From NCBI RefSeq assembly GCF_033001325.1, contig NZ_CP133114.1:124001-188000 (forward strand): 64,000 bases of DNA, read 5' to 3'. The stretch comes from Rhodopseudomonas sp. BAL398. GTDB taxonomy: Bacteria > Pseudomonadota > Alphaproteobacteria > Rhizobiales > Xanthobacteraceae. Position 1 is the first letter of the stretch, and each line of letters starts with the position of its first letter. Of the stretch, positions 15,415 through 53,637 are shown in pieces. The translations under genes and the position numbers were made by a program. The notes under the pieces are model-generated. The model saw only the letters and a list, made by a program, of their open reading frames with translations. It made no database searches and had not been told where the DNA came from.

Positions 15415-16650
15415 ATGGCCACATCTCTCAGACTTCAACTCCGCCCTGACGATCCTGCCAACGTTCTCGCACCGATCGTCCAAGACTATCGCGAGCACTT
15501 CGAAGCAAGGCGCTATCAGGCCAAACGCGTTCGCCGTTATGTCGCCAGCGTCTTCCATTTCGGGGATTGGCTGCGTTCGGAAGACTGGGCGGTCCAGAAT
15601 GTCGACGAAGCAGTCGTCGGCCGATTCATTTCCGATCATTTGCCCAACTGCACCTGTCCACGCCCCGTTCAGCGCAACCCGATCATCAATAGGGCCGCCC
15701 TCAATCACCTGATCCACATCCTCTACGCGAAGGGGATCATCCGCCGTCCTGTCGCCGACCCGATCACGCGTGAACTCGCGTTGTTCGACGAGAAGATGAC
15801 GGAAGTCTGGGGCTTGGCCCAAGGCACGCGCGATCACCGATGCCGGATCATCAGGCGCCTGCTCAAAGCTCAATTCGGATCGGGACCAATCGATCCAACA
15901 TCCATCAGCCCATCGGCGATTCGAAGCTTCGTTTTAGATGACGCTACATGGAGCAGGAGTACGATCCGCGTCATGGCGGGCGCGGTTCGATGCTATCTCC
16001 GCCATCGCAAACTACTCGGCGACAACGTCACCGATCTGATGCACGCTGTGCCTCAACCAGCGTGCTGGGGTCAAACCAAATTGCCCGAGGCACTTTCTGG
16101 GGACGAACTGGAACAGCTTTTCCGGTCGTTCGATGCGGCCTGTCCATCGCGACGGCGCGGCTATGCGATGGTCCGATGCCTTGCCGATCTCGGTCTCAGA
16201 AGCAGCGAGGTCGTCCGGCTGAGCCTAGACGACATCGACTGGCAAGCCGGCACCATCCGGATCACCGCGGGCAAAGGCCGCCGAGCTGACGTGCTGCCGC
16301 TCCCAAGGGCGACAGGTGAGGCCATCGCCGACTATCTTCTTCACGAGCGGCCGAAGACGACATGTCGCCAGATTTTCGTTCGACATGTTGCCCCTTTGGG
16401 CGAGCCGGTTGGTCGGCGCGTGGTCCAGAAAGCCGTTCATGCCGCCTATCAACGGCTGGGTTGGGACCGCACACGCGTTCACATCCTGCGACACACCCTG
16501 GCCACTCGGCTCGTCAATGCCGGGACACCAATGAAGCAGATTGCCGATGTTCTGCGTCACCGCAGCATCGTGACGTCGGCCACCTACACCCGTGTTGACA
16601 GTTCGCGCCTCACGGCGGTCGCGCTGTGCTGGCCGGGGAGCGTGGCATGA
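15415..16650 (+). CDS. ritA: RitA-like tyrosine recombinase
   Basis: A 411-residue tyrosine recombinase, first of the RIT trio. An N-terminal SAM-like core-binding domain spans about 1-200. The C-terminal catalytic domain shows 'LADLGLRSSEVVRLSLDDID' with the first Arg, the Lys hairpin 'ITAGKGRRADVLPLP', 'HILRHTLATRLV' with His-x-x-Arg, a further His in 'LRHRSIVTSATYTRVD', and the nucleophile Tyr in TYTRVD. The ATG follows CGAGGAGATCAAGC. Its stop overlaps the next start (ATGA). It is about 80 residues longer than the other two recombinases because of its N-terminal domain. Confidence 0.92.
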   Translation: MATSLRLQLRPDDPANVLAPIVQDYREHFEARRYQAKRVRRYVASVFHFGDWLRSEDWAVQNVDEAVVGRFISDHLPNCTCPRPVQRNPIINRAALNHLIHILYAKGIIRRPVADPITRELALFDEKMTEVWGLAQGTRDHRCRIIRRLLKAQFGSGPIDPTSISPSAIRSFVLDDATWSRSTIRVMAGAVRCYLRHRKLLGDNVTDLMHAVPQPACWGQTKLPEALSGDELEQLFRSFDAACPSRRRGYAMVRCLADLGLRSSEVVRLSLDDIDWQAGTIRITAGKGRRADVLPLPRATGEAIADYLLHERPKTTCRQIFVRHVAPLGEPVGRRVVQKAVHAAYQRLGWDRTRVHILRHTLATRLVNAGTPMKQIADVLRHRSIVTSATYTRVDSSRLTAVALCWPGSVA

Positions 16651-17612
16651 GCGCTCCGTACACCATGCTATCGCGGGCGGAAGCCTACCTCGCAGAGCGC
16701 CGTCGCCTCGGCTTCGCGTTGAAACGACCAGGCAGTCAAATATTGGCTTTCGCGTGTTTTGCGGACGCGGGCGGTCACAAGGGGCCTTTGACGTCCGCCA
16801 TAGTTCTCCGATGGGCGAAGGAAGAAGCGCAGGTCGATGACCCTTACACATGGGCCAGACGGGTCGACGTTCTTCGCCCGTTCGCACGCTATCTCACCGA
16901 TCTCGATCCACACACCGAGTTTCCAGCCGGCTTTCCTTTCGGTCGTTCAAAACGCCGGCTCGCACCGCATATCTATACACCAGCGGAAGTCGAGGCGTTG
17001 ATCGGAGCAGCGAGCCGTCTCTCGCCACAAGGAGGATTGACGCCGGCAACCTTCACGACGCTCTTTGGTTTGCTGGCCGCTACGGGCCTGCGGATATCCG
17101 AAGCACTGAACCTACGCTGTGGCGACATTGACGGCACGCGGGCGCACCTCACAGTCCGACACTCAAAGTTCCAGCGGACTCGGCTCGTTCCCCTGCACTC
17201 GACCACGACCCAGGTGTTGCGACGCTATCTGCGCGCACGCGCCAGATATGGTTCAATGAATATCACCACGCCGCTCTTCATGTCCGAGAAGACAGGGGGC
17301 GTGCTTCGGTACAGCGAGGTGCGAGGAGTATTTCTTCGCTTTGCGGCCGAGTTGAGGATCATTCCCCGCGGCGGCCATCGCTACATACGCGTTCACGACC
17401 TCCGGCACACCTTCATCTGTCGACGCCTGATGCTGTGGCAGGAGAACGGCACGGATGTCGACAACGCCATGATGACGCTCTCCACCTATGTGGGCCATGT
17501 CAACCTGGGGGATACCTATTGGTATTTGCAGGCCGTGCCGGAGTTGATGGCTGTCGCCGGCGCACGCTTCGAGGCACAAGCAATCATGACCGGGGAGGTG
17601 GATCATGGTTGA
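16647..17612 (+). CDS. ritB: RitB-like tyrosine recombinase
   Basis: A 321-residue tyrosine recombinase, second of the RIT trio. The catalytic motifs are 'LLAATGLRISEALNLRCGDI' (Arg), 'VRHSKFQRTRLVPLH' (Lys region), 'RVHDLRHTFICRRL' (His-x-x-Arg), 'YVGHVNLGDTYWYL' (His/Trp) and Tyr in DTYWYL. The ATG at 16647 overlaps the ritA stop and has GGGGAG 8 bases upstream; a GTG seven codons earlier is less likely. It overlaps ritC by 8 bp, so all three are probably translated together in a fixed ratio. Confidence 0.92.
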   Translation: MSAPYTMLSRAEAYLAERRRLGFALKRPGSQILAFACFADAGGHKGPLTSAIVLRWAKEEAQVDDPYTWARRVDVLRPFARYLTDLDPHTEFPAGFPFGRSKRRLAPHIYTPAEVEALIGAASRLSPQGGLTPATFTTLFGLLAATGLRISEALNLRCGDIDGTRAHLTVRHSKFQRTRLVPLHSTTTQVLRRYLRARARYGSMNITTPLFMSEKTGGVLRYSEVRGVFLRFAAELRIIPRGGHRYIRVHDLRHTFICRRLMLWQENGTDVDNAMMTLSTYVGHVNLGDTYWYLQAVPELMAVAGARFEAQAIMTGEVDHG

Positions 17613-18615
17613 TGCGAGCCTACATTCATCGTTTCCGACGTTGTTGCAGCACTTCTTCGTCGACCATTTGCACCAACAGCGGGCCGTCAGCCCGAACACG
17701 ATCGCAGCCTACCGCGACACGTTCAAATTGCTCCTGCTCTATGCGGAGAAATCCATCGGCAAGTCGCCAACCGGTCTGTCGCTCCGAGATTTGGATGCGA
17801 CGTTGATCCTTGGCTTCCTCGATCATCTCGAGCGGAATCGCGGCAACAGCGTACGTAGCCGCAACGCCCGCCTGTCGGCGATCCGATCGTTCCTGAAGTA
17901 CGCTGCCCATCACGACCTCTCGGCCTTGGCCACCATCGAGCACGGCCTAGCAATTCCGTCGAAGCGTCATGACAAACCGGTGCTCGGCTTTCTGACCAAG
18001 CCAGAGATGGAGGCAATCATCGCGGCGCCCGATCAGCGAAGTTGGGTTGGGCGGCGGGATCGTGCGCTGTTCACATTGCTCTACAACACCGGCGCACGAG
18101 TATCGGAGGCCATCAATCTACGGGTCGGCGACGTCATCTTGGACATATCGCCTGTGGCACATCTCCATGGGAAAGGAAGGAAGAGGCGGAGCATGCCGCT
18201 CTGGAAAACAACAGCCAGCACTCTTCGACAATGGAAGCGCCAGCTCGCCAGGGCCGAAGATTCCGACTTCCTGTTTCCAAATGGCGCGAGCGGGAAGTTG
18301 TCACGCTCGAGCGTAACACAACGCCTCGCTCTGGCGGTTAAGCATGCCATTCAACAACATCCTCGGCTCGCCGGCCAAGCGATCTCGCCGCATACGATCC
18401 GCCACACGACGGCGATGCACCTCCTTCAGGCGGGCGTCGACATCACCGTAATCGCCCTGTGGCTCGGGCATGAAAGCCCGACGACAACCCACATGTATCT
18501 GGAAGCTGACCTAGCAATGAAAGAAGTCGCGCTCAGTCGATTGCAGCCCGTGAACGCTGCACCAGCCCGCTATCGGCCGCCAGATCAGCTTATGGCATTC
18601 CTCCAAAGCCTTTGA
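17605..18615 (+). CDS. ritC: RitC-like tyrosine recombinase
   Basis: A 336-residue tyrosine recombinase, third of the RIT trio. It has an N-terminal core-binding domain ('FFVDHLHQQRAVSPNTIAAY') and catalytic motifs 'LLYNTGARVSEAINLRVGDV' (Arg), 'HGKGRKRRSMPLW' (Lys), 'PHTIRHTTAMHLLQAGVDI' (His-x-x-Arg), 'WLGHESPTTTHMYLEADL' (His) and Tyr in HMYLEA. GGGGAGG precedes the ATG inside ritB. It stops right at the inner edge of the right terminal repeat. Confidence 0.92.
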   Translation: MVDASLHSSFPTLLQHFFVDHLHQQRAVSPNTIAAYRDTFKLLLLYAEKSIGKSPTGLSLRDLDATLILGFLDHLERNRGNSVRSRNARLSAIRSFLKYAAHHDLSALATIEHGLAIPSKRHDKPVLGFLTKPEMEAIIAAPDQRSWVGRRDRALFTLLYNTGARVSEAINLRVGDVILDISPVAHLHGKGRKRRSMPLWKTTASTLRQWKRQLARAEDSDFLFPNGASGKLSRSSVTQRLALAVKHAIQQHPRLAGQAISPHTIRHTTAMHLLQAGVDITVIALWLGHESPTTTHMYLEADLAMKEVALSRLQPVNAAPARYRPPDQLMAFLQSL

Positions 18616-20218: not shown

Positions 20219-20236
20219 ATGGTCATTTGTGACCAT
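20219..20236 (+). promoter_or_regulatory. lux/tra-box-like dyad upstream of luxI-type gene
   Basis: ATGGTCA-TTTG-TGACCAT, a perfect 18-bp dyad centred 67 bp before the AHL synthase start. LuxR/TraR-type boxes are 18-20 bp dyads in this position. Recognition is by size, symmetry and place, not by identity to a known box. Confidence 0.5.
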
Positions 20237-20294
20237 ACCGGCGCGACGCCATGCGTGGCCAACTCGGCTCATTCAACAAGCCGAGGAGTCGCCT

Positions 20295-20918
20295 ATGCTT
20301 ATGGTCATCCCTGGCTCGGACATCAGCCGCCATGCTGTGCTGATGGATCGGGCCTTCCGTTTCCGCCACGCGGTGTTCGTCGAGGAGAAGGGCTGGGAGG
20401 ACTTGCGCCAGCCAGACGGTCTTGAGCGCGATCGGTTCGACGACGCACATGCAACTCATCATATCTGCCTGCGCGGCGACGAGATCGTGGGCTACCAGCG
20501 CCTGCTGCCGACGACGCGTCCGCACCTGCTCACCGAAGTGCTGTCGGACCTGTGCCGTAAGCGCCCGCCGCGCGGGCCGCGCGTGGTCGAGTGGACCCGT
20601 TTTTGCGTCGCGCCCGGCCATCGCGAGATGCGTCCGCGCGGCGACAGTCCCTTTCTGGAGCTCGCGCAGGGCGTTGTCGAGTGGGGCATGGCGAGCAAGG
20701 TCGACACTGTCACGGTCGCGATCGACTGGCGATTGATGGTGATCGCGATGCAGCTTCGCTTCTTTGTCCGTCCCCTCGGATTTCCGAAACGCATCGGCCG
20801 CGACGAGGTGGTCGCTCTGCGTATGTCGTTCAACCGGGAGACGCTCGCCGCGCTCCAGCAGGCCCGCGGCTGCGAGGACCGCGTGCTTCCCGACACCAGG
20901 CTGCCTTCGGCTGCGTGA
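20295..20918 (+). CDS. LuxI-family acyl-homoserine-lactone synthase
   Basis: A 207-residue AHL synthase. It keeps the family residues: 'FRFRHAVFVEEKGWE' (Arg, Phe, Trp), 'ERDRFDDAHATH' (the two Asp), 'GYQRLLPTTRPHLL' (Arg) and 'VVEWTRFCVAP' (Glu-Trp-x-Arg). It would join an acyl chain to SAM to make a quorum signal. GAGGAG precedes ATG 20295. There is no luxR/traR gene next to it in the window, although an 18-bp dyad lies upstream. The position beside the transfer genes suggests control of conjugation by cell density, as with TraI in rhizobial plasmids. Confidence 0.9.
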   Translation: MLMVIPGSDISRHAVLMDRAFRFRHAVFVEEKGWEDLRQPDGLERDRFDDAHATHHICLRGDEIVGYQRLLPTTRPHLLTEVLSDLCRKRPPRGPRVVEWTRFCVAPGHREMRPRGDSPFLELAQGVVEWGMASKVDTVTVAIDWRLMVIAMQLRFFVRPLGFPKRIGRDEVVALRMSFNRETLAALQQARGCEDRVLPDTRLPSAA

Positions 20919-20946: not shown

Positions 20947-21195
20947 GTGGTGATCCGCAGTGCAGACACGAAGATCGTCGCCCAGGAACTTCATACGCGC
21001 TACGACCACATCCGTGCTGTTACAATCATCGGTCGCACGCTACAGAAGGCGCTCTTCGCCGGGCGGTCCGACGAGGTCGTTTTCTGGGCCCTCGTGCACG
21101 CGCACTATCGCGGTGGGAATTTATGTTCGACCACGGAGCAGCAGTTGCACGCCTTCGCCGACTTCATCATCCGCGATCCGTCAGAGGTGAACTGA
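20947..21195 (+). CDS. Small protein downstream of AHL synthase
   Basis: An 82-residue protein, mostly helical, beginning (GTG) MVIRSADTKIVAQELHTRYD. AGGAGG sits just upstream at good spacing. It follows the AHL synthase by 28 bp on the same strand and is probably co-transcribed. Similar short genes follow traI/luxI genes in some rhizobia as far as I recall, but no function is known. It has no signal peptide. Confidence 0.65.
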   Translation: MVIRSADTKIVAQELHTRYDHIRAVTIIGRTLQKALFAGRSDEVVFWALVHAHYRGGNLCSTTEQQLHAFADFIIRDPSEVN

Positions 21196-21206
21196 GGTCA
21201 CGATCG

Positions 21207-21911
21207 TTAAACGTCGGTCGGACTGACAACGATCGACGCGCTCGACGCGGTCGGGGGGTTGGCGGCGACGCCCGTTGTCGTCGGAAAATCGCCCGGCCCT
21301 GAGGGCCCGCACACGGCTTGCCCATCTTTGCAGTTCGGGTCCGCGAGCGCGCGCGCATTGTTCGACATCTTGCAGATGGTCGTCCCGTTGATGTCGGAGA
21401 AGCCGGAGCACGAGCCGGAATTCAACATTTTCTGGCAGTTGCCGGTGCCGAGCTGAATGCAGGCGGCAATAAAACTGGCGTCCACCTTCTGGCCGTCGAA
21501 GGTCGACATCGAGGCCAGCTGCCTGACAGCGGGTGAGTCGTAGCCGTCGTTAGTGAGCTTCGCCCAGGCGTCGACCTGGTCCTGCAGCGACATGCAGCCA
21601 TAGCCCGCCCGGTCGGTCGCAGCGTATTTCTGGACGTTGGCGTTGTTGAGCTGAAAAACTCCGGTGCAGCAGCTGCCATTGTAATTGCCTTTGTTGCCGC
21701 TGGACTCGAAGCGTCCCAGGCCGCCAAGCGAGCAGGACGTTCCCTTAAGGTCATCCCGCAGCGGAGAGCTCCTCACCGCATCGGTGATCTGTTGGGCTGA
21801 GTAATTCGTGCGCTCGCAATATTGTGCAGCAACGGCCTGCCTGCTTCCCAGCCATTGAGTGATCACGCACAGGACCAGGAAAAGCACAAGGCTTCCAAAC
21901 CGCATGCACAT
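21207..21911 (-). CDS. Exported transglycosylase-like Cys-rich protein
   Basis: A 234-residue exported protein: signal peptide about 1-28 (FLVLCVITQWLGSRQAVAAQ), then a Cys-rich domain with at least ten Cys. 'FESSGNKGNYNGSCCTGVFQLN' has the order Glu-Ser-x-Gly-Asn...Gly-x-Phe-Gln-Leu seen in lysozyme-like transglycosylases, so a peptidoglycan-cutting or binding role is plausible. Many Cys suggest disulfides in the periplasm. AGGAGG lies 6 bases before the ATG. It is the last gene of the minus-strand transfer accessory cluster and has a Ser/Thr/Pro tail. Confidence 0.65.
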   Translation of the reverse strand: MCMRFGSLVLFLVLCVITQWLGSRQAVAAQYCERTNYSAQQITDAVRSSPLRDDLKGTSCSLGGLGRFESSGNKGNYNGSCCTGVFQLNNANVQKYAATDRAGYGCMSLQDQVDAWAKLTNDGYDSPAVRQLASMSTFDGQKVDASFIAACIQLGTGNCQKMLNSGSCSGFSDINGTTICKMSNNARALADPNCKDGQAVCGPSGPGDFPTTTGVAANPPTASSASIVVSPTDV

Positions 21912-21935
21912 GAAATCCCTCCTAATTCCCGAATC

Positions 21936-22502
21936 TTACTTGAGCGAATAGACCCGTTCGCAGCTCGGCACGTCGCTTCCGCCGATCGACGTGCGGAAGC
22001 TGATGGTGCCGGCCGTCGCGTCGTAGCGCGTGTAGGAAATATCGTTGCGGTTCTTCGCGGGCAGATCGGGATCGGCATGGTCCGTGTAGCAGCCGGTGTC
22101 CGACTTGATGGATATCACCTTCCCGTTTTCGATCGTGACGATGCGCACAGGGCAGGTCGACGGCTCGATCGCGGCCCCCTTATCATTGGCGCCGCTATCG
22201 CACGCGCGCGATAGCGCCGTGCTCACGATGATGGTGCGGTTGCCGTCGCGATAGGTCGAGGCGAGCGCGGTGACAAGCGCGTTCTTGCCGTCGAGAGACC
22301 GCTTGAGCTCGGTCGTCACATAGGCGTTGGCCTCGCGGATCACGTCGGGCCACACCAGCGTCTGCAACGGGTCGGTCGCCGACGGGGTCTGGAAACTGTA
22401 ATAGTTCATAGCCTGCCAGCCATCGGCAGCTTGATCCTGCGCGGCGGCGATGCCTGACATCGCAAGCAGCGCGAGAAACGGAAGGGTGAACCGGAATCGC
22501 AT
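21936..22502 (-). CDS. Exported protein, tandem paralogue A
   Basis: A 188-residue exported protein with a clear signal peptide (MRFRFTLPFLALLAMSGIAA, cut near AQDQ). The mature part holds 'GWQAMNYYSFQ', 'TCPVRIVTIENGKV' and 'CERVYSLK'. It is homologous along its length to the product of the next upstream gene (22646-23200), so the two arose by duplication. No known domain was recognised. AGGAGG precedes the ATG. It is encoded in the transfer accessory cluster; a role in the mating channel or surface is inference. Confidence 0.7.
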   Translation of the reverse strand: MRFRFTLPFLALLAMSGIAAAQDQAADGWQAMNYYSFQTPSATDPLQTLVWPDVIREANAYVTTELKRSLDGKNALVTALASTYRDGNRTIIVSTALSRACDSGANDKGAAIEPSTCPVRIVTIENGKVISIKSDTGCYTDHADPDLPAKNRNDISYTRYDATAGTISFRTSIGGSDVPSCERVYSLK

Positions 22503-22645
22503 CGAATCCTCCTGATGCTGAGATCGCCAACCAGCATGGCACGGCTGCGAGCGCCGTCCAGGCCGCGCGCCAGCGCGCCCCGTAGGGGTCGCCTTGACGG
22601 CGCCCTCAGCGGGCGTGGCACCACGTTGGGCGGGCGGGCAGCGTT

Positions 22646-23200
22646 TCATTGGGAATTCAGCGCGATGTTTTGTGAGCAGCCGTCGACGGGCTGGTGATCG
22701 ATGATGAGGCCGGTTTTCACGGTCTTGGTGGCGACATCGTAGGAAGCGTAGGAAGCAGCCTGTACGTCGCTGCTGCCGCCGGCGACGGCCGCAGCAAGTT
22801 CGAGAAAGCAGGCATAGCCGCCATCGAGAGTCCGGACCTGGATTCCCTCGTAGATGGCGATCCTCAACGGGCAAAGTTTGACGGTCGCACCGGCGGCCGC
22901 GCGCAGTTCTTTGAGCGTGCAGCCGGTGACCGTGTTAAGGATCGAGAGTACGACGGATTTCTTAGGACTCCAGATCACGAAGTGCGCCTCCGTGGCGGGG
23001 GCGTTACCGTCGTTGAATCTCTGGTCGCCACGCGCCTGATAGGCGCGATTGTTGATGTCGATGGCGTCTTTCCAAATGTCCCGATAGGTCGCAGTCCCCG
23101 GGGAGGAATTCTGGAGGTTTGCGTACGACATCGGCCGCCAAGATCCTGGGTCGAGCGTCAGCGATTGCGTGTGAGCACCGGTGGTAAGGCTGACTATCAT
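22646..23200 (-). CDS. Exported protein, tandem paralogue B (start uncertain)
   Basis: A 184-residue call starting at ATG 23200. The reading frame stays open upstream and encodes 'LKRNGARALGAVVMIVSL', which with the residues after it would make a complete signal peptide, but no ATG, GTG or TTG is found between 23206 and 23281. The true start may be a rare codon or be masked by a small indel. The mature part 'SWRPMSYANLQNSSPG' to 'CSQNIALNSQ' aligns with paralogue A. It shares the transfer accessory cluster. Confidence 0.6.
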   Translation of the reverse strand: MIVSLTTGAHTQSLTLDPGSWRPMSYANLQNSSPGTATYRDIWKDAIDINNRAYQARGDQRFNDGNAPATEAHFVIWSPKKSVVLSILNTVTGCTLKELRAAAGATVKLCPLRIAIYEGIQVRTLDGGYACFLELAAAVAGGSSDVQAASYASYDVATKTVKTGLIIDHQPVDGCSQNIALNSQ

Positions 23201-23269
23201 CACCACCGCGCCAAGGGCGCGCGCGCCATTCCGTTTTAGCTGACGTCTCTTCGGACGCGGATAACATCT

Positions 23270-23281
23270 AATATATTGTCT
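23270..23281. repeat. Shared 12-mer, copy 1
   Basis: AATATATTGTCT, with a palindromic AATATATT core, upstream of paralogue B. The same 12-mer occurs at 25980-25991 upstream of virB1. It may be a shared promoter or operator element. Confidence 0.35.
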
Positions 23282-23307
23282 TTGTCCGATCGGCACAACC
23301 GGGTTCC

Positions 23308-23856
23308 TTATTCGTAGCGGGGGCGGCCGGGGACCCACCACCAGACGTCCTGGGGGGAGCGCTCGCGATTGCGCCACGGCGCTGCGACGCGCGGCGGGTA
23401 CACTGGCTGCATGTTCCAGATGGCGCCGTAATAGTAGAAATTTGCGGTCTCACGGCGCAGCCGTCTCCCGGAAGCATCCAGGAAATCCGTCGCGCAATGC
23501 ACCACAGGGCCGCGATAGCGCGTCACCCGCGCGGTCTGCTCGTCGAGGGCCCCGGGCTTGCATCCGAACAGCCAGATCGACGACGCGTAGGAACGGTCCG
23601 ATGGCGCGGCGGCGATCAGGCGACGATAGGCGGCGTTCGCCTCCGGCTGCGTGGGATAGGGGAAGCGTTCGGTCAGCAGCGGCGCGAAGGTCGAGCGGTC
23701 CGGCGCATATTCAAGGCGGCCCGGCTTGACCCGTTCGGGACTAAAGAGCGCTTCGGGCGCCGGCGGTCCCAGGTCGGCGACAGATGCCGCCGGCGCGGCG
23801 CAACCCGCCAGAACGATCAACAGCGGCGCAAACAGGATATGAGATGCACGGATCAC
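23308..23856 (-). CDS. Lipoprotein of transfer region
   Basis: A 182-residue predicted lipoprotein: signal MIRASHILFAPLLIVLAGCA with lipobox LAGC at about 15-18. The mature part is Pro- and aromatic-rich, ending in 'WWWVPGRPRYE'. No conserved domain is recognised. It overlaps the SNase-like gene by 4 bp (ATGA), so translation is coupled. An outer-membrane position next to a VirB system suggests a role in the transfer channel or surface exclusion, which is inference only. Confidence 0.7.
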   Translation of the reverse strand: MIRASHILFAPLLIVLAGCAAPAASVADLGPPAPEALFSPERVKPGRLEYAPDRSTFAPLLTERFPYPTQPEANAAYRRLIAAAPSDRSYASSIWLFGCKPGALDEQTARVTRYRGPVVHCATDFLDASGRRLRRETANFYYYGAIWNMQPVYPPRVAAPWRNRERSPQDVWWWVPGRPRYE

Positions 23857-24443
23857 GGCGTGGCCTCGCCCTGCGCGGCAGCCTGCCGCTTGGGATCATG
23901 ATTGGCGCGCCAGTCCCACGGCATTTGGAAGGTGCTCGCCCACAGACCGCGATAGGCCTTGCGGGCGTCCTGCTCGGCGAGCGCATAAGCGCGAATGCGG
24001 GGATCATCCGGCGACGGCGGACGAGCAACGGCAACGCCCTCGCGCACCATGTCCGCCGCGATGTCGGGATGACCGGCCGAGGCGCATCGCGCCAGATGCT
24101 CACCGGCCTCGTCGCGCAGGGTTCTGCAGGCCAGCCAGACGTTGAGCGTCACCTTCACAAGCCAAGCCGTCGCCATCGTTCCACACGGCCAGGGCTGGCG
24201 ACCAAGGCGCGCGGTTTGTTCGGGCGCGCAGGTCTCGATTCCATAAAGCCGATAGACCGCATGGGTCTCGATATCGCGAAAGCGTGTGCCGTCGACCACC
24301 TCGACGCGCAGCGGCGGCGACTGGACCGCAGCCTTCGGCGAATAGATGCCGGGTGGCGGCTCGGGCGTTTGTGCGAGGCTTGTCTGGGCGCCGAAGATAG
24401 CCAGACCTGACAACACACCCACAACGAGTTTAGGCCGCGGCAT
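23853..24443 (-). CDS. Exported SNase-like protein A
   Basis: A 196-residue exported protein with signal peptide MPRPKLVVGVLSGLAIFGAQ... and a staphylococcal-nuclease-like (thermonuclease) core: 'VVDGTRFRDIETHAVYRLYG' then 'IETCAPEQTARLG', 'CGTMATAWL' and 'GVAVARP...YALAEQDARKAYRGLW'. The Arg of 'RLYG' is kept, but the usual D-x-P-E segment is altered to ETCAPE, so catalysis is uncertain. It overlaps ssb by 14 bp and the lipoprotein by 4 bp. It may act on extracellular or entering DNA, or be a binding-only relative. Confidence 0.75.
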   Translation of the reverse strand: MPRPKLVVGVLSGLAIFGAQTSLAQTPEPPPGIYSPKAAVQSPPLRVEVVDGTRFRDIETHAVYRLYGIETCAPEQTARLGRQPWPCGTMATAWLVKVTLNVWLACRTLRDEAGEHLARCASAGHPDIAADMVREGVAVARPPSPDDPRIRAYALAEQDARKAYRGLWASTFQMPWDWRANHDPKRQAAAQGEATP

Positions 24444-24768
24444 CGTCGCGTGATCCGAGATCGAGTTTGTGGAAGACGCTGGCGATGATGTCGGTCGTAT
24501 AGATGGTTTCCCCATCCTTCTTGTAAGACCCATCCGCGACCCGGCATTCCGCATAGACCGCGTCGCCTTTGGCGACGTTGGCGATCGCCCATTCCGCCAC
24601 CTTTTCGTTGAGGATGGTGACGGTCACCCAATCGGTTTCTTCGCGACGCTCGCCTTTACCATCGGTCCAGGCCCGATCGGTCGCGACGTTGATCTTGGCG
24701 GCCTTGTTGAAGGCTTTCGGAGCCTGGCCGACGCGACCGCGCAGGATGAACAGGTTTGTCGTTCTCAT
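24430..24768 (-). CDS. ssb: Single-stranded DNA-binding protein
   Basis: A 112-residue SSB with one OB fold: 'MRTTNLFILRGRVGQAP', 'DWVTVTILNEKVAEWA', 'KGDAVYAECRV' and 'TTDIIASVFHKLD'. The acidic C-terminal tip typical of housekeeping SSB (DDDIPF) is missing; it ends in SRDDAAA. It is therefore a plasmid-type SSB that likely coats transferred single strands. GGAGGAAGTATC precedes the ATG. It sits between two SNase-like genes. Confidence 0.88.
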   Translation of the reverse strand: MRTTNLFILRGRVGQAPKAFNKAAKINVATDRAWTDGKGERREETDWVTVTILNEKVAEWAIANVAKGDAVYAECRVADGSYKKDGETIYTTDIIASVFHKLDLGSRDDAAA

Positions 24769-24801
24769 GATACTTCCTCCTCTTGGGTAGCTGCTTGGAT
24801 G

Positions 24802-25413
24802 TCAGGGTGTTGTGGTTTGCGGGGATGACGTCGTCGAAAGAGACGAAGCTGGCGGCGCTTGCTCGCGCAGCGCACGCAGGATAATGGCGTTCGGGTCGGG
24901 CAGATCGGGAAACGCCCATAGGCCGGCCTTGGCGCGTTGCGCCACGAGCTGGGCGACGAAATAAGGCGCGTGCACCGGCTGACCATCCGGCTTCAGGGCC
25001 GCGAACGCAAAGCCCGTCGCGACCAGCGCCGTGCCGAGATCGATGCGGGATCCCGCGCCCGCACCAGTGGTGCGGCTTGAGACGCAAAACACGAAAATTG
25101 TCTTGGTCTTGGGTTGCTCGGCAGCGTCATAGCATTGCGGTCGCAGGTCGCGCGTGAGCGCCACCAGCATGGCAAGGGAGGCCTCGCCGCAATCGCGCTG
25201 GAGACCGTGCGCGTTGGTGAAGTTCGTTCCGCGCAGGCAGGATTGGACGCCATAGAGGCGATAGGTGACACCATTGTCGGACCAGCTGTCGCCCGTCAGA
25301 TAGAGCGCATTCGCCGGGACCGGAAACCATCGTGATGCGGCCGGGTCTGCGATTGCCGCGTTGAATGCCAGCACCGGAACCACGACTGCGGCGAAAACCT
25401 CAGCTCTTGCCAT
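24802..25413 (-). CDS. Exported SNase-like protein B
   Basis: A 203-residue exported relative of SNase-like protein A, with signal MARAEVFAAVVVPVLAFNAA. The core has 'VTYRLYGVQSCLRG', 'RDCGEASLAMLVAL' and 'GTALVATGFAFAALK', with 'AKAGLWAF' near the end. The Arg of RLYG is kept but the catalytic Asp/Glu segment reads VQSCL, so it is probably inactive as a nuclease. It ends in a Ser/Thr tail. Its start lies 1 bp after the stop of the 25415-25915 gene, so it belongs to the same operon as ssb. Confidence 0.7.
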   Translation of the reverse strand: MARAEVFAAVVVPVLAFNAAIADPAASRWFPVPANALYLTGDSWSDNGVTYRLYGVQSCLRGTNFTNAHGLQRDCGEASLAMLVALTRDLRPQCYDAAEQPKTKTIFVFCVSSRTTGAGAGSRIDLGTALVATGFAFAALKPDGQPVHAPYFVAQLVAQRAKAGLWAFPDLPDPNAIILRALREQAPPASSLSTTSSPQTTTP

Positions 25414-25414
25414 G

Positions 25415-25915
25415 TCAGTAACCCCGCAAGGAAAAGTAGAACCGCTGGCTGCCATTCGCCGAACTGATGTCGACGTAATAAGGATCGCTCCGCGGGTCTC
25501 GCGCCGTCGTGGGATAGGTGGTGCTGCAACCGCCGTCGCCATCCGCACAAACTTGTTGCGGCTTCGACAGGTCCGCACAGAGATCGCCGTTCGGCGCTGC
25601 GGACAGACCGAGGACACCGTCCGGCGCTGATTGAACGGGCGTCAACCCGGCGGGACAGGCCTGATAAGGCTCGTAACCGACCCCACTGGCGTTCCCCTCG
25701 GGACACGACGGCCAGCCGCCGCCTTTTGCCAACTGCCGAAACAACGTCTGCATCACTGGCACGCAATAAGGGATGCCCGACCAGCCTGGCACGCTCGCGG
25801 CCGCGCAGAGCAGCACCTTGCATCCGAACGACGCATCCTGTGCGCGCGCCGTCCCGCCGATGCCGGACGCGCAACACAGGCCGACGGCCATCCACAGAAC
25901 TGCACCGCGTTTCAT
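25415..25915 (-). CDS. Exported Cys-rich protein, first of accessory operon
   Basis: A 166-residue exported protein: signal peptide about 1-26 ending ARAQ, then a mature part with eight Cys (for example 'GCKVLLCAAA', 'YCVPV', 'SCPEG', 'ACPAG'), likely paired as disulfides. No domain is recognised. GGAGGATGG precedes the ATG. It heads the minus-strand accessory operon that diverges from virB1; about 100 bp separate the two starts, including the AATATATTGTCT repeat. Confidence 0.65.
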   Translation of the reverse strand: MKRGAVLWMAVGLCCASGIGGTARAQDASFGCKVLLCAAASVPGWSGIPYCVPVMQTLFRQLAKGGGWPSCPEGNASGVGYEPYQACPAGLTPVQSAPDGVLGLSAAPNGDLCADLSKPQQVCADGDGGCSTTYPTTARDPRSDPYYVDISSANGSQRFYFSLRGY

Positions 25916-25979
25916 CCATCCTCCGGGAGTGCGCGCAGGGGACGCTTGGCTTAATCCAGTTGCCAAAGTATCAACATTC

Positions 25980-25991
25980 AATATATTGTCT
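25980..25991. repeat. Shared 12-mer, copy 2
   Basis: AATATATTGTCT identical to 23270-23281. It is 25 bp before virB1 in the divergent promoter region of the two transfer operons, so it could be part of a promoter or operator. Confidence 0.4.
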
Positions 25992-26015
25992 ATTGGAAAG
26001 TGGAGGCGGGGTGGC

Positions 26016-26750
26016 ATGTCTATTCGCATCGCAGCGCTCGGATTGGGCGTCCTGGCCATGTTCGCGACCGCAAGCGCGCAGGATTCATCTCCGCCGCCCA
26101 GGCTGGCGGCCATCGATGCGACGGGTCGGATTCTGCCGCTGAATACGCCTCCGGCCGCGATCGAGCGGATCGATATCGCTTTTGCCGCAACCGTTCCCTG
26201 CCTTGATGCCAAGGCGATGGCGCCGGAAGCGGCACGCGCTCTGGTCGTGCGTATCGCCACGGAGGAGAATTTCTATCCGGATTTTGTGCAGTCAGTCGCC
26301 AAGGCTGAGAGTGACTTCAATTCTGTCGCGCTGTCCGACAAGGGCGCATTCGGTTTGATGCAGTTGAAGCCGGAGACGGCGCGGCGTTTCAAGGTTGATC
26401 TCTGCGACCCCGCAGACAACGTCCGCGGCGGCGTTCGCTTTCTGCGCGCGCTTCATGACAAGTACCGCAATCCGCTCTTCATCCTCGCGGCCTACAACGC
26501 GGGCGAGGGGGCCGTAGAGGACAGCCATGGTGTCCCTCCGTTTCCCGAGACGGTGCGTTTCGTCGCCAAGGTGATCAACGACTTCTACGTCTGGCCCGCG
26601 CCGGGCGGCCGCGCTCACGCCGAGCCGCGCAACCGGATGAGCAGTCTCGACCTGATCGAGCCCGAAACCCCGCCCTCCGCTTCGCCTCCCGCACCAAAAG
26701 CAACGCCTCAAAAGGGCTGGAGCGACGGATTCGTTATGCATGTCGACTGA
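26016..26750 (+). CDS. virB1: VirB1 lytic transglycosylase
   Basis: A 244-residue exported muramidase. Signal peptide MSIRIAALGLGVLAMFATAS is followed by an SLT domain at about 85-190: catalytic Glu in 'KAESDFNSVALSDKGAFGLM', then 'QLKPETARRF', 'NVRGGVRFLRAL' and 'ILAAYNAGEGAV'. It opens the cell wall for assembly of the mating channel. The C-terminus is Pro-rich and variable. It is the first gene of the plus-strand virB operon; GGAGG lies near the ATG. The divergent region upstream contains the AATATATTGTCT repeat. Confidence 0.92.
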   Translation: MSIRIAALGLGVLAMFATASAQDSSPPPRLAAIDATGRILPLNTPPAAIERIDIAFAATVPCLDAKAMAPEAARALVVRIATEENFYPDFVQSVAKAESDFNSVALSDKGAFGLMQLKPETARRFKVDLCDPADNVRGGVRFLRALHDKYRNPLFILAAYNAGEGAVEDSHGVPPFPETVRFVAKVINDFYVWPAPGGRAHAEPRNRMSSLDLIEPETPPSASPPAPKATPQKGWSDGFVMHVD

Positions 26751-26763
26751 ACCGGAGGATTGG

Positions 26764-27066
26764 ATGAAAAAATCGATACCGCGCTGGACCCTTGCGGGAG
26801 CGCTCCTGACGGCGAGCATCGCGGACGCGGCCGCGCAGACCGGCGGCACGCTTCAACCTGTTCAATCCACGCTGACGCAATTGGTGTCGGCCCTCACCGG
26901 GCCGATCGCCACAGCGCTGGCAACGCTCGCCGTGATCGCTTGCGGATTTTTCGCCTGGTCCGGGCGGCTGACCTGGGGCATTGCGGGCAGCGTCATCTTC
27001 GGCATCGTGCTCGTGTTCGGCTCGGCGCAGATCGTGCAGTTTTTCCAGTCGGCGGTCGGACAATGA
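26764..27066 (+). CDS. virB2: VirB2-like pilin
   Basis: A 100-residue prepilin with signal peptide (about 1-25, ending AAAQ) and two membrane helices, 'LVSALTGPIATALATLAVIA' and 'GIAGSVIFGIVLVFGSAQIV'. Size, order and position match VirB2, the pilus subunit. CGGAGGATTGG precedes ATG 26764. Its stop overlaps virB3 (ATGA). Confidence 0.9.
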   Translation: MKKSIPRWTLAGALLTASIADAAAQTGGTLQPVQSTLTQLVSALTGPIATALATLAVIACGFFAWSGRLTWGIAGSVIFGIVLVFGSAQIVQFFQSAVGQ

Positions 27067-39221: not shown

Positions 39222-39563
39222 ATGACCGCTAAGAACAACTTAGTCCAGGCGCCGCCCTTCGAGGTCGATCGAGCCTTGAAAAAGCTTGGTGCCGATCTGC
39301 GCACGGCACGCCTGCGACGCAACCTGACCGTCGAGGCCACTGCCGCCAAGATCGGGACCGGCCGTCGTGCCATCCTGGATGCCGAGAAGGGCAAGATCTC
39401 GACGCAGATCGGGGTCTATGCGGGCCTGCTGTGGGCCTACGGCCTCGTCGACCGCTTCAGTGACGCAGCCGATCCGCGATTCGATGAAGAGGGCCAGCGC
39501 CTCGCCTTGATTGGGGATCGTGTCCACGCCCGCAGCCCGAAGGGATTGGACAATGAGTTCTAA
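39222..39563 (+). CDS. hipB: HipB-type antitoxin
   Basis: A 113-residue Xre-family antitoxin. The HTH lies at about 20-75 ('LGADLRTARLRRNLTVEATA', 'KIGTGRRAILDAEKG'). It should bind the four palindromes upstream and hold HipA inactive. The ATG follows the last operator directly. It overlaps hipA by 11 bp. The C-terminal tail is charged, as in other HipB proteins that degrade quickly. Confidence 0.88.
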   Translation: MTAKNNLVQAPPFEVDRALKKLGADLRTARLRRNLTVEATAAKIGTGRRAILDAEKGKISTQIGVYAGLLWAYGLVDRFSDAADPRFDEEGQRLALIGDRVHARSPKGLDNEF

Positions 39564-40845
39564 CGTCACGCCAACAGAATGCTTCGTCTACGTTACTTTG
39601 CCCGGTCAAACCGCGCCGGTTACGGCGGCGCGGTTTGAGCTTACCAAAGACAGGCGCGACATTGCGATCGGCAGACTGGTCTATGGCCGCACCTATCTCG
39701 CCCGCGCCGAGGCCGTGCCGATCGATCCGATCGAACTCAGGCTTGCTAATCAGACCTATGGAACCGTCAGCATGAAAGGCTTGTTCGGCGCGCTGCGTGA
39801 TGCAGGGCCGGACTACTGGGGCCGCCGCCTTATCGAAAGGCATCTCGGTGCTGCCCAGCTCAACGAGATGGATTACCTGCTGCACTCACCTGATGATCGG
39901 GCGGGCGCCCTCGGCTTCGGACTGAATCAGCAGCCTCCGGCGCCCAAGCGGGATTTCAACAAGACCCTCAGCCTCGCTCGGCTGCAGAAGATCGCCGATG
40001 CAATCGTCGATGAAGAAGATCGCCCCGATGACGCCGAAGTCGCTCAGGTCGAAGAACTGCTGCTGGTCGGCACGTCAATGGGCGGTGCGCGGCCGAAGGC
40101 CGTGGTCGAGGACACCGATGGGCTATGGATCGCCAAGTTCAACAGGAAGGACGACAAATGGAACAACGCGCGCGCTGAACACGCCATGCTCATGCTCGCA
40201 CGGGCATGCGGTATCACGACGGCGGAAAGCAAGGTGATCGTCGTCGGCGGTCGTGACGTCCTCATGGTCAAACGCTTTGATCGCGAGCGGGCCGACGGTG
40301 GTTATCTGCGCGCCCGCATGCTTAGCGGTCTGACGCTGCTTCGCGCCGAAGAGGGGCATGACACGCGCGATCGATGGTCCTATGTGCTGCTGGTCGAAGA
40401 GCTGCGGCGAGTTTCGGCCAACCCCCGGGGTGATGCTGCCGAACTGTTTCGCAGGATGTGCTTCAACGCATTGATTTCGAACACCGACGATCACCCGCGC
40501 AATCATGCGGTCATGGCAATGACTCCTGACTGGAACCTATCGCCAGCCTACGATCTCACGCCGGGACCCTTGATCAGTGAGGAGCGGCGCGATCTCGCCA
40601 TGATCTGCGGCGACGCGGGCCGCTATGCCAATGCCGAGAACATTGTCTCGCAAAGCATGCGCTTCCTGCTTGAAAAAGACGTGGCCGAAAAGATCGTGTC
40701 GGACATGGAAGAGCAGGTTCGAAGCAAGTGGTATGAGGTCGTACGGCGGGAGGGGCTCTCGGAAGCGGACTGCAACACGATCAGCCGGTCCTTCGTCTAC
40801 CCGGGCTTCCGGTATCCTATATCACGAGCCGCGCCACCGATCTGA
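39553..40845 (+). CDS. hipA: HipA-type toxin kinase
   Basis: A 430-residue HipA kinase. The N-terminal subdomain ('FVYVTLPGQTAPVTAARFEL') is followed by the ATP-binding part ('LLLVGTSMGGARPKAVVED') and the catalytic loop 'NALISNTDDHPRNHAVM', with 'WNLSPAYDLTPGP' after it. Family members phosphorylate glutamyl-tRNA synthetase or other targets and cause growth arrest. ATG 39553 lies within hipB, which keeps the two proteins coupled. It may stabilise the plasmid or act as a defence gene. Confidence 0.9.
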   Translation: MSSNVTPTECFVYVTLPGQTAPVTAARFELTKDRRDIAIGRLVYGRTYLARAEAVPIDPIELRLANQTYGTVSMKGLFGALRDAGPDYWGRRLIERHLGAAQLNEMDYLLHSPDDRAGALGFGLNQQPPAPKRDFNKTLSLARLQKIADAIVDEEDRPDDAEVAQVEELLLVGTSMGGARPKAVVEDTDGLWIAKFNRKDDKWNNARAEHAMLMLARACGITTAESKVIVVGGRDVLMVKRFDRERADGGYLRARMLSGLTLLRAEEGHDTRDRWSYVLLVEELRRVSANPRGDAAELFRRMCFNALISNTDDHPRNHAVMAMTPDWNLSPAYDLTPGPLISEERRDLAMICGDAGRYANAENIVSQSMRFLLEKDVAEKIVSDMEEQVRSKWYEVVRREGLSEADCNTISRSFVYPGFRYPISRAAPPI

Positions 40846-42084: not shown

Positions 42085-43599
42085 TCAGCGCTCCTCCCAG
42101 AGCGCGCGAACTAGTGCGCGGCCCTCGGCACCTATATGGTCCTCGAAGGTCGCCAGTGCCTGGTCGACAGTGTTTGATCTTGAAACGACGTCCGAGATCA
42201 GCGCGTGATATCCGCTTGCGGTGAATTCAACCCGAAAAATCTCGCGTGTCAGCAGCCCGACATTCTCAGCAAAGGTTTCGACCTCTGGACGCTCGATCCC
42301 AATGCTTGCTCCGTCACGGAAAAACAGCGACACACAATTGCTGGGTACTTCCTGAGCAATGACGGGTGAGTGAGTGGCCAGAATGGCCACGCCGTTGCGT
42401 TGCGCCAATAGACCCGAGAGCGCACGGACGAACGATGCCGCGAGCGGGGGATGAAGATGGGCTTCCGGCTCGTCGATCAGAACCAGCGTTCGCTCGCTGA
42501 CCAGCTCGACTAACCGCGTCATGGTGAGCAACACAATCTTGTGGCCGGAGCTTGCCGCGTCAAACAATTGAACTGCAGTGTTCTCGAAGTCGTCTTGCGG
42601 CAAGTCGGCAAGTCGTTCTAATCGCAGTGCGGCAAAAAGCGGATCGCTTTCCAGGATGCGCATGGCAGACCGCCATCGCGGCTTTCGCGAGCTGCGCAGG
42701 CATTTGAGGGTACTCGCGACAAAGTCAGTGCGCAGATCAGCTGTCGTCTTATTTCGTGCCTCATGCCTACCGCTCTTCAGGCGCACGTTCTTCTTCAGGC
42801 CAATATAGGCGTATTGCAGGCCTGTGGCGGTCCCATCATTGGGTATGGCGGGGTCAAATTCATCGAACGCGCTGAAGGCCACGGTGACAAGGTTTGCGAA
42901 GCCTTCCTCACCATTGAGCTCATCGTCGTCGGTGATGAAGGTCAGGCGTCCGAGCGATCGTTTCCGCCCGACCCGCAGTAGGGTACTGATCGAACGAAGA
43001 AGTGTTGTTTTTCCGACGCCGTTGCGGCCGATAATGGCATGAATATTTGTCGGCGGAACCGCGTCGGGGGTCACCTGAACTTCGATGACGGCATCGTCCG
43101 ATTCGGGAAACTTGTACCGGAAATGGAACGGCGTCAGCATCGCCTGCTCGTGTGCAATGGTTCTGAGTTTGGTCAACTCTCGTGCCGAAACAGACCGGAG
43201 CAACGACGTCTCGAACGCGGTTTCGTTCTGGACGGCGGCGAAAATATCATCATTCCAGACCACGTCCTGCAGTGCTTCGAAAATCGCGATGCGATCCTCT
43301 TCATCGACCGCAATTAGATTTTCGTAATATTCTTGGCTTTGTCCAAGTGATGCATATTCCGGCCCGAGGGCGGCAAAGCCGTCTTCGACCTGGGTGTATC
43401 CGTGGCGCATGTTGCGTTGCATAATCTTAACAGCGCCGATGTCATGACGGGTACCATCGCCGTCCAAATAGATAAGCGAGAACGCCGTTTTATAGGAATA
43501 GTCGTCCCAATTATCGGTTACGAGAAAACATTGCCGGCCACCGGCAATGTCGCGCTCCACGCGCGAACTGCGCGAATACGGTATGACCGTGAACTGCAA
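42085..43599 (-). CDS. ABC-like ATPase of Septu-like pair
   Basis: A 504-residue ATPase. Walker A 'IIGRNGVGKTTLLRSI' at about 189-204, a signature-like 'SSGHKIVLLT' at 350-359, Walker B 'LVLIDEPEAHLHP' at 372-384, and the H-loop 'ATHSP' at 408-412. The sequence order matches SMC/ABC-type ATPases in PtuA, OLD and retron effectors. About 185 residues precede Walker A, opening with beta-rich 'DNWDDYSYKTAFSLIYLD', whereas in typical PtuA as I know it Walker A is near the N-terminus. The C-terminal 100 residues are helical. Defence function is inferred from the pairing. Confidence 0.78.
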   Translation of the reverse strand: MQFTVIPYSRSSRVERDIAGGRQCFLVTDNWDDYSYKTAFSLIYLDGDGTRHDIGAVKIMQRNMRHGYTQVEDGFAALGPEYASLGQSQEYYENLIAVDEEDRIAIFEALQDVVWNDDIFAAVQNETAFETSLLRSVSARELTKLRTIAHEQAMLTPFHFRYKFPESDDAVIEVQVTPDAVPPTNIHAIIGRNGVGKTTLLRSISTLLRVGRKRSLGRLTFITDDDELNGEEGFANLVTVAFSAFDEFDPAIPNDGTATGLQYAYIGLKKNVRLKSGRHEARNKTTADLRTDFVASTLKCLRSSRKPRWRSAMRILESDPLFAALRLERLADLPQDDFENTAVQLFDAASSGHKIVLLTMTRLVELVSERTLVLIDEPEAHLHPPLAASFVRALSGLLAQRNGVAILATHSPVIAQEVPSNCVSLFFRDGASIGIERPEVETFAENVGLLTREIFRVEFTASGYHALISDVVSRSNTVDQALATFEDHIGAEGRALVRALWEER

Positions 43600-53400: not shown

Positions 53401-53637
53401 GGACTTCGGCACAGTCAGCATCGCCGTCGCGAGCGGATAAGTCACCTGATCCTCGACCACCTGCGGTGCCTGGCCGGGATACTCGGTGTAGACGATGACT
53501 TGCGTATCGGAGAGGTCCGGAATCGCGTCGAGCGGCAGATGGACCAGCGCATAAATGCCCGCGGCAGCCGCGAATCCGGCGCCGAATAGCACCAGCAGCA
53601 GATTGCGGGCCGACCAGGCGATCAGTCGGGCGATCAT
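50443..53637 (-). CDS. cusA: CusA-type Cu(I)/Ag(I) RND efflux pump
   Basis: A 1064-residue heavy-metal RND pump with twelve membrane helices. The periplasmic Met residues known from CusA are in the matching segments: 'LLYMPTTLPGISVTKA', 'PIKARIDMLSTGIRTPVGVK' and 'ITPNRMALARYGIM'. The proton-relay helix carries 'IAIGAMVDAAIVMIENAHKH'. It exports monovalent copper or silver across the outer membrane with CusB and an outer-membrane partner not found here. The start overlaps cusB by 4 bp. No cusC-type gene is seen in the window. Confidence 0.93.
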   Translation of the reverse strand: MIARLIAWSARNLLLVLFGAGFAAAAGIYALVHLPLDAIPDLSDTQVIVYTEYPGQAPQVVEDQVTYPLATAMLTVPKSKVVRGFSFFGVSFVYVIFEDGTDIYWARSRVLEFLNGAASRLPSGVTPTIGPDATGVGWVYQYAVMSKELNLADTRAIQDWNLKFALAKAEGVAEVASVGGFVKQYNVVLDPQRMRDLGITMQKMRDAIRASNADVGGRTVELSEFEYVIRGKGYLKDINDLGNIVLKTNNGTPVLLKDVARVELGPDERRGITELNGEGEVTSGIVLQRFGVNALDVINNVKKRFQEIASSLPKSVEIVPVYDRSTLINRAIDTLKHTLFEESIVVALVCIIFLLHVRSALVAILMLPVGVLMAFGAMKLLGLGSNIMSLGGIAIAIGAMVDAAIVMIENAHKHLERGEPGRSRIGILIDAATEVGPALFFSLLIITVSFMPIFTLESQEGRLFSPLAFTKTFAMAAAALLSVTLVPALMVIFVRGQIVPEHKNPINRFLIWIYRPVIKGVLRAKTLVVLLAVAVLAATVWPARQLGTEFMPNLNEGTLLYMPTTLPGISVTKAAELLQTQDRIIRSFPEVASVFGKAGRASTATDPAPSEMFETVINLKPTEQWRSGVTVDSLTAEMDKALQFPGVSNAWTMPIKARIDMLSTGIRTPVGVKVIGPDLAGIDKLAKQVERVLKAVPGTSSAYAERGIGGYYLDITPNRMALARYGIMIQDVQEVIATALGGQTVTTTVEGRQRFTVNMRYPRDLRDNPRKIASDVLVPMPQGGAVPLGEVAKITLDRGPTSIRTENGQLATYVYVDIRDRDLGGYVTDAQKAVQASIAFPPGYYVVWSGQYEYLERATARLKIVVPVTLLIIFLLLYLNFRSITETMIVMLSLPFALVGGLWLMWLLNFNLSVAVAVGFIALAGVAAETGVVMLIYLNQAFDEVKLRCTLKGRKVTRRHLYDAIMEGAVERVRPKMMTVVAIMAGLLPIMWSTGTGSEIMQRIAVPMIGGMISSTLLTLIVIPAIFGLVKGFRLPNGGSGGDPSVMPSAPAKRLPQHIPEPAK

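Follow-up and report, generated by a model that had tools for sequence, protein, structure and literature searches.

A putative accessory envelope module of VirB-type conjugation systems with exchangeable pairs of muramidase-like core and partner gene

Type IV secretion systems (T4SSs) are tied to exported peptidoglycan enzymes such as the lytic transglycosylases VirB1, TrwN and TrbN, and according to a 2025 review it is not fully understood how a T4SS limits its own cutting of the cell wall (PMC12624023). In Xanthomonas citri, a T4SS is linked to the lysozyme-like protein XAC2609 (X-Tfe), which has a conserved C-terminal region, and to its exported partner XAC2610 (X-Tfi); this partner is a periplasmic inhibitor and protects the producer itself (PMC10933484). 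PrgK, the muramidase of the conjugation T4SS of pCF10, likewise has its activity held down, in this case by extra domains of its own (PMC11323569). Here we describe a cluster of eight genes, A to H, next to a VirB-type conjugation system in a 64,000-nucleotide stretch of Rhodopseudomonas sp. BAL398 (contig NZ_CP133114.1, positions 124,001 to 188,000, forward strand; hereafter the window, numbered from its first nucleotide). We read the cluster as an accessory cell-envelope module of this system, which is of mating-pair formation type T (MPF_T), with an exchangeable muramidase-partner cassette at its core, and we regard the chances of this reading as about even.

Gene A likely encodes a muramidase, as predicted from its sequence. 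Like VirB1, TrwN and TrbN, it would be an exported, T4SS-tied peptidoglycan enzyme, and the VirB1 model detects one type of its cores (type iii, below). Unlike these enzymes, A is additional to virB1, so that it would be a second wall enzyme, its core is exchangeable and matched by a neighbouring gene, and it ends in a tail that follows the plasmid backbone. It also differs from XAC2609: A has a signal-like N-terminus, its tail has about 30 residues whereas the secretion domain XVIPCD has about 120 (PMC6536674), it belongs to conjugative plasmids, core and partner are exchanged together, and inhibition by the partner is here something that we infer. In place of the domains that control PrgK, we propose a separate partner protein.

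Across the loci compared, gene A occurs with three alternative catalytic cores, carrying motifs like GRFESGGN..CCTGIFQLN (type i), SEGNFG..GAFQF (type ii) and the SLT-like HES..GFNSCAGSDTGVKGPMQLT (type iii). Types i and ii are distantly alike (28% identity, 7.8e-6), and BLASTP found no convincing similarity of type iii to either. A Glu in the lysozyme-like motif is invariant in every type: 31/31 cores of type i (31 of 32 were counted, one being cut by a contig end), 18/18 of type ii and 7/7 of type iii. We take this Glu motif to be muramidase- or lysozyme-like. Family matches of types i and ii are weak: the window's A matches Phage_lysozyme2 at 0.0097, under the cut-off, and 7 of the 18 members of the A5 set (types i and ii) match SLT, at best with 0.016. 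Conserved cysteine columns number 11, 11 and 5 in cores i, ii and iii, respectively.

The core type and the adjoining gene for an exported partner are paired. Type i cores go with B, a paralogue of C, type ii cores with a family that we call X and type iii cores with a family Y; the partner mostly lies between A and C (the gap from A to B is about 100-130 nt). All 57 loci that could be typed show this pairing (i with B in 32, ii with X in 18, iii with Y in 7). In this first set the core types were assigned by patterns chosen after inspection, and B was scored as at least two C-family genes per locus. Since the set includes the window region repeatedly (L001 and L035, with the near-copy L036), one contig twice (L007, L079) and other close relatives, the 57 loci are not independent cases. 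Later loci were scored with fixed models built from the first set only, and the pairing was found in 19 of 21 of them (18 of 41 plasmid matches plus three loci from genomes; some have relatives in the first set). It is also intact in all three loci with core and partner but without C (L088, L095, L106). In the two misfits, L117 and L134, a membrane protein of the TrbL/VirB6-like kind has the core as its N-terminal part; the fused core is of type ii in L117 and of type i in L134, and each stands beside a C-family-like gene. C without a typed A, near a contig end, is seen in L056 and L059, and Y without a typed A in L107.

A second TrbL-like protein adjoins the core ii fusion (L117:6611-8506) and has an N-terminal stretch whose motif suggests an M15-type peptidase; several kinds of cell-wall enzyme seem to be fused to the TrbL-like channel family. 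Profile comparison with C gave a probability of 28 for X and no match for Y. In 397 genomes of the order, X had 0 matches at 1e-6, a result of little weight on its own. Y-family exported proteins are also present in L137, L138 and L139 with no muramidase core nearby, and these solitary proteins may represent lysozyme-inhibitor-like proteins of the host or immunity genes left as orphans.

The core types have been exchanged between plasmids. On a VirB4 tree made by a quick method (51 of the 57 loci, those with VirB4 longer than 400 aa), the distribution of core types requires at least eight changes, where two would be the least possible; the well-supported branches alone force five changes for type i, five for type ii and three for type iii, each counted against the other two. 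Mesorhizobium-type plasmids with very similar VirB4 carry either i with B or iii with Y. The borders of the exchange can be seen in pairs of such plasmids. Between L067 and L070, the flanks are 90.2% and 92.6% identical, and the unmatched block starts 24 codons before the stop of A and stops 6 nt within what is likely the start codon of the partner gene, for which other in-frame starts exist. L066 and L075 (flanks 91.7% and 91.8%) have the same borders, with 25 codons. The borders in these two pairs define the exchanged unit as the partner gene plus the core, with the tail of A and gene C staying in place; D lies outside the block too. As an observation apart, L007:4295-4579 (the same contig as L079:13140-13424 and L142) holds a second, partial copy of the C-terminal part of A, with an internal stop, downstream of A; it is a possible remnant of exchange.

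Different cores share the same C-terminal tail of about 30 residues, which in the window is GPGDFPTTTGVAANPPTASSASIVVSPTDV (at about 21210-21299). One backbone group has the form GPGDFPTxTGxAANPP...V, Mesorhizobium a sister form and Methylocystis-like loci another form that is rich in Pro; the tail is missing from three Rhizobium-type loci. We compared tails in 40 of the 57 loci, those with the tail pattern and VirB4 (L041, whose frame runs past the usual end, was excluded). Among pairs with VirB4 at least 85% identical, tail identity is 0.75 for the same core type (159 pairs) and 0.71 for different types (181 pairs), whereas core identity is 0.85 and 0.33, respectively. Between types, tail and VirB4 have a rank correlation of 0.78, and 0 of 300 shuffles reached as high a value. 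Thus, the tail goes with the VirB4 backbone whatever the core type, and the core goes with its partner. One reading of the tail is that it would dock A to the T4SS. In VirB1 itself (26013-26750 and its relatives), the C-terminus has a recurring motif W..G[FM]V...[DN], and the stretch that precedes it varies.

The cluster as a whole is widespread on plasmids. A full-length alignment of 21207-27066 to plasmids of Bradyrhizobium sp. SK17 (79.6% identity) and Afipia carboxidovorans (78.7%) indicates that it is more than a chance assembly, and partial alignments were obtained to Bosea, Nitrobacter, Mesorhizobium, Ancylobacter, Lichenihabitans and others. Many Hyphomicrobiales plasmids have the same gene set next to virB1. 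Similarity to G was used to collect genome loci (the best 80 of 187), and 31 of these 80 have A, C, D, an SNase-like gene (SNase, staphylococcal nuclease), H and virB4 all together. Complete sets mostly follow one order: J, A, (B), C, D, E, (F), G, H and then virB1 on the opposite strand. The module is in two parts in several Mesorhizobium plasmids, and many Rhizobiaceae loci retain only H-, E- and G-like genes. A LuxI-type gene adjoins the module in many loci. Among viral contigs we found no relative of G, and the A5 set matched only G000 and G082 among 376 genomes of the class. Some relatives carry misleading annotations: type ii A proteins are labelled 'acyltransferase' and G 'succinoglycan biosynthesis protein exoi'.

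A search that does not depend on the module, with VirB4 against the 397 genomes, gave 24 places in 19 genomes, of which the window's own and 20 others were covered. At 53% identity or more, all five places, the window's own among them, come with an A core, a C-family gene and a partner within the same genome, in one case at a distance of 24 kb; at 52% or less, none of 16 has A or C in the stretch covered. In the window, VirB1, VirB2, VirB6 and VirD4 are recognised by family matches, with virB1, virB2 and virB4 on the strand opposite to the cluster, from about 26013. The assignment to MPF_T rests on these VirB genes with VirD4, and on VirB4 and the gene order in L002 and L003, which PLSDB types as MPF_T. 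A previous sequence-only reading had listed seven exported proteins and one single-stranded DNA-binding protein (SSB) as an operon-like set next to a VirB system and divergent from virB, and had held that absence of co-occurrence elsewhere would speak against its reading of the set as a DNA-handling module for transfer. The gene list is correct, the eight open reading frames being confirmed as co-linear on the minus strand, where they follow one another head to tail between 25915 and 21207. The set is indeed tied to VirB-type systems and does recur in other loci, the 31 just mentioned among them.

All proteins of the cluster except F have a Sec- or lipoprotein-type signal at the N-terminus, as read by eye, and Pfam gives no match for B, C or H. 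B and C are 24% identical (E 1.5e-4) and merge in one profile, and are thus remote paralogues. We regard C, D, E, G and H as fixed envelope parts of one module. The model of C (mean predicted local distance difference test score, pLDDT, 91) has no clear counterpart in the PDB: Foldseek found nothing at E <= 0.001, and one VIA row has Z 5.1 over 116 residues with a root-mean-square deviation (rmsd) of 4.4. Several rows for C are beta-propellers (Z 3.4-5.1), the topology of PliI and XAC2610 (PMC10933484), which says little; PliI, Tsi1 and XAC2610 are not among the rows shown. The fold search with D (best Z 4.3 over 75 residues, rmsd 3.4; IseA rows Z 3.1-3.7) was as uninformative as that with C, and D has a weak NTF2-like resemblance only.

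E matches the SNase family over the cut-off (2.5e-7) and G marginally, under the cut-off (Pfam 0.21, NCBIfam 1e-4). We checked the active site by alignment to the R388 thermonuclease (91 rows of G and 64 of E, counting ungapped rows), taking the catalytic set to be D21, R35, D40, E43 and R87. In family G, D40 is replaced by Q in 90 and E43 by L or I in 90 of 90 rows, and D21 and R35 are retained. In family E, where the alignment near the active site is less sure, D21 is found in 4/55, E43 in 19/61 and R87 in 1/63 rows; R35 is mostly retained, and position 40 is mostly Asp or Glu. Judged from these alignments, a complete canonical active site is missing from both families. With these residues lost, E and G are unlikely to be nucleases of the usual type and are probably inactive SNase-fold proteins. 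F has an OB-fold SSB domain (PF00436, 5.4e-13, over the cut-off). SSBs usually end in an acidic tip like DDDIPF, which F lacks, and close relatives have ends similar to its own. Among 35 loci that hold D, at least two SNase-like genes and H, the SSB is present in 22 and absent from 13, and it is an optional passenger of the module.

H was compared with an open reading frame beside trwN of R388 (IncW), which the record calls hypothetical and which we take from its position to be KikA. The two are alike in the Cys-rich N-terminal part (hhalign probability 99.4, E 3.6e-21, 73 columns) and differ in their C-terminal parts; on this profile evidence we assign H to the KikA type. Its gene diverges from virB1, which the gene in the KikA position of R388 does not. 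TrbM and TrbN of IncP R751 are likewise an exported Cys protein and a transglycosylase in a transfer operon, and H has a weak profile match to R751 TrbM (83.6%). We considered H as a member of the TrbM family and rejected it: PF07424 gave no match over the cut-off in 17 genomes and none for any of the 10 members of A1, and it was the comparison with the R388 protein that succeeded.

The intergenic region between H and virB1 is conserved, with AATATATTG invariant in five aligned loci and CAATATATTG in four of the five. A promoter-like pair faces virB1 at 25960-25987, and AATATATTG lies inside the promoter-like stretch; three promoter-like sites were found there against 1.1 expected by shuffling. 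Given this conserved, promoter-like region, the two operons may share their control. In R388, the kikA promoter is under the control of KorA, as are other T4SS promoters (PMC3937220).

The evidence points to cell-wall handling at the T4SS over DNA handling, and we suggest the following mechanism. A VirB-type machine has to open the cell wall locally. A would enter the periplasm by export, and its C-terminal tail would keep it at the T4SS. The partner (B, X or Y) would most likely be a periplasmic inhibitor or gate matched to the core, preventing lysis of the donor by A before the machine is complete or mating starts. A change of core would then demand a change of partner. The fusions to TrbL/VirB6-like proteins would put cores at the inner-membrane channel. 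Several points weigh against this proposal. A reaches no Pfam cut-off, B, X and Y have no convincing Pfam match, and the TrbL matches of the fusions in L117 and L134 (PF04610, 3.6e-4 and 0.02) are under the cut-off. Three of the four Y matches in the 397 genomes have no core within the 11-12 kb covered, so that being a partner is not the only role of Y. Within type i, core and partner show no excess of covariation in distance beyond VirB4 (partial 0.17, versus 0.18 for C). Finally, the tail may stay with the backbone just as a flank of homologous recombination.

The same swapping of an enzyme with its neighbour, next to a fixed tail, resembles polymorphic antibacterial effectors with their immunity proteins. 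A would then be guided by its tail through the conjugation T4SS into neighbouring cells, and B, X or Y would protect kin, an explanation that we find rather unlikely. The three genomes with solitary Y genes would be in keeping with orphan immunity genes, the X. citri T4SS delivers a lysozyme-like effector that has a periplasmic inhibitor (PMC10933484), and recipients are killed by the RP4 T4SS (PMC11045733). However, A has a signal-like N-terminus and no such signal was found in the X. citri effector, the secretion domain of the latter has about 120 residues against about 30 in the tail of A, and cores fused to TrbL/VirB6-like proteins suit an enzyme of the machine better. A related and bolder version would make A a polymorphic cell-wall toxin on the plasmid's own transfer machine, with the tail as mark for the T4SS of its backbone, the core hitting the wall of the mating partner or of rivals and the neighbour protecting the carrier; conjugation systems would then evolve in the manner of contact-dependent toxin systems. 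We hold this to be quite unlikely. The partner could instead be an activator, a folding helper or a substrate adaptor, the exchange fitting the plasmid to the peptidoglycan of different hosts. The pairing and exchange data suit this idea equally, and the conserved cysteines of the cores make help with folding conceivable, but the different types in closely related Mesorhizobium plasmids argue that type is not simply determined by the host. Present data do not separate activation from inhibition, and we give activation or adaptation a small chance.

An improbable alternative is a surface or entry exclusion module, in which the variable pair sets the exclusion group. A variable exported pair within an otherwise conserved transfer region would suit such a role, as would the lipoprotein D; yet D is not in the exchanged block, and the variable part has a catalytic-type Glu in every core compared. 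The sequence-only reading had proposed a DNA-handling module that joins an SSB to exported nucleases. The SSB is indeed adjacent to two SNase-fold proteins, and some active-site residues persist (D21 and R35 in G, R35 in E). This proposal does not hold up well, neither SNase-like family having a complete active site and the SSB being dispensed with in over a third of comparable loci and devoid of the acidic tip, and we consider it very improbable.

If our preferred reading of an envelope module with a muramidase-partner cassette is right, the cassette suggests how a T4SS might open the cell wall without killing its host. Naturally matched sets of enzyme and partner, swapped between close plasmids, make the question of control directly testable. 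Were the pairs effector and immunity protein, conjugation would be linked to kin discrimination, the more surprising outcome. A literature search, judged by titles and the openings of abstracts and with most subscription journals outside its scope, found no description of a core-partner exchange cassette. RcgA and RcgR were considered and set aside as cluster genes, since they are an alpha/beta hydrolase-like and a membrane protein (PMC9601222).

Table 1. Features of the cluster and its surroundings, in window coordinates
Feature	Position	Strand	Description
Gene A	21207-21911	-	234 aa, exported, muramidase-like, core type i
Gene B	21936-22502	-	188 aa, exported, pairs with core type i, C paralogue
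Gene C	22646 to ~23296	-	exported, B family; start uncertain, 23206 alternative
Gene D	23308-23856	-	lipoprotein, lipobox LAGC (by eye)
Gene E	23853-24443	-	exported, SNase-fold, canonical active site incomplete
Gene F	24430-24768	-	SSB, 112 aa, C-terminus LGSRDDAAA, overlaps E
Gene G	24802-25413	-	exported, remote SNase relative, D40->Q, E43->L
Gene H	25415-25915	-	exported, Cys-rich, of the KikA (R388) kind
Exchangeable unit by analogy (partner gene and A core up to A tail)	21300-22502	-	borders from Mesorhizobium loci, not from the window
virB1	26013-26750	+	SLT lytic transglycosylase of the VirB operon, SLT 1.8e-20
Gene J	20947-21195	+	small conserved protein, convergent with A
LuxI/TraI-type acyl-homoserine-lactone synthase	20229-20918	+	convergent neighbour; match under family cut-offs
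Divergent control region, H to virB1	25916-26012	.	carries AATATATTG, CAATATATTG and the promoter-like pair

For gene J, Pfam gives no match. Elsewhere in the window, three adjacent, overlapping tyrosine recombinase genes, all Phage_integrase, lie at 15415-18615 (+), a layout that we take to be a recombinase-in-trio (RIT) element. Downstream of the VirD4 gene is a HipA-like protein (39511-40845, +), probably a plasmid maintenance toxin, and at 42085-43599 (-) an AbiEii-like AAA ATPase, possibly a defence gene. A resistance-nodulation-division (RND) efflux pump with a HlyD/CusB-type adaptor, at 50443-55061 (-), probably serves metal export.

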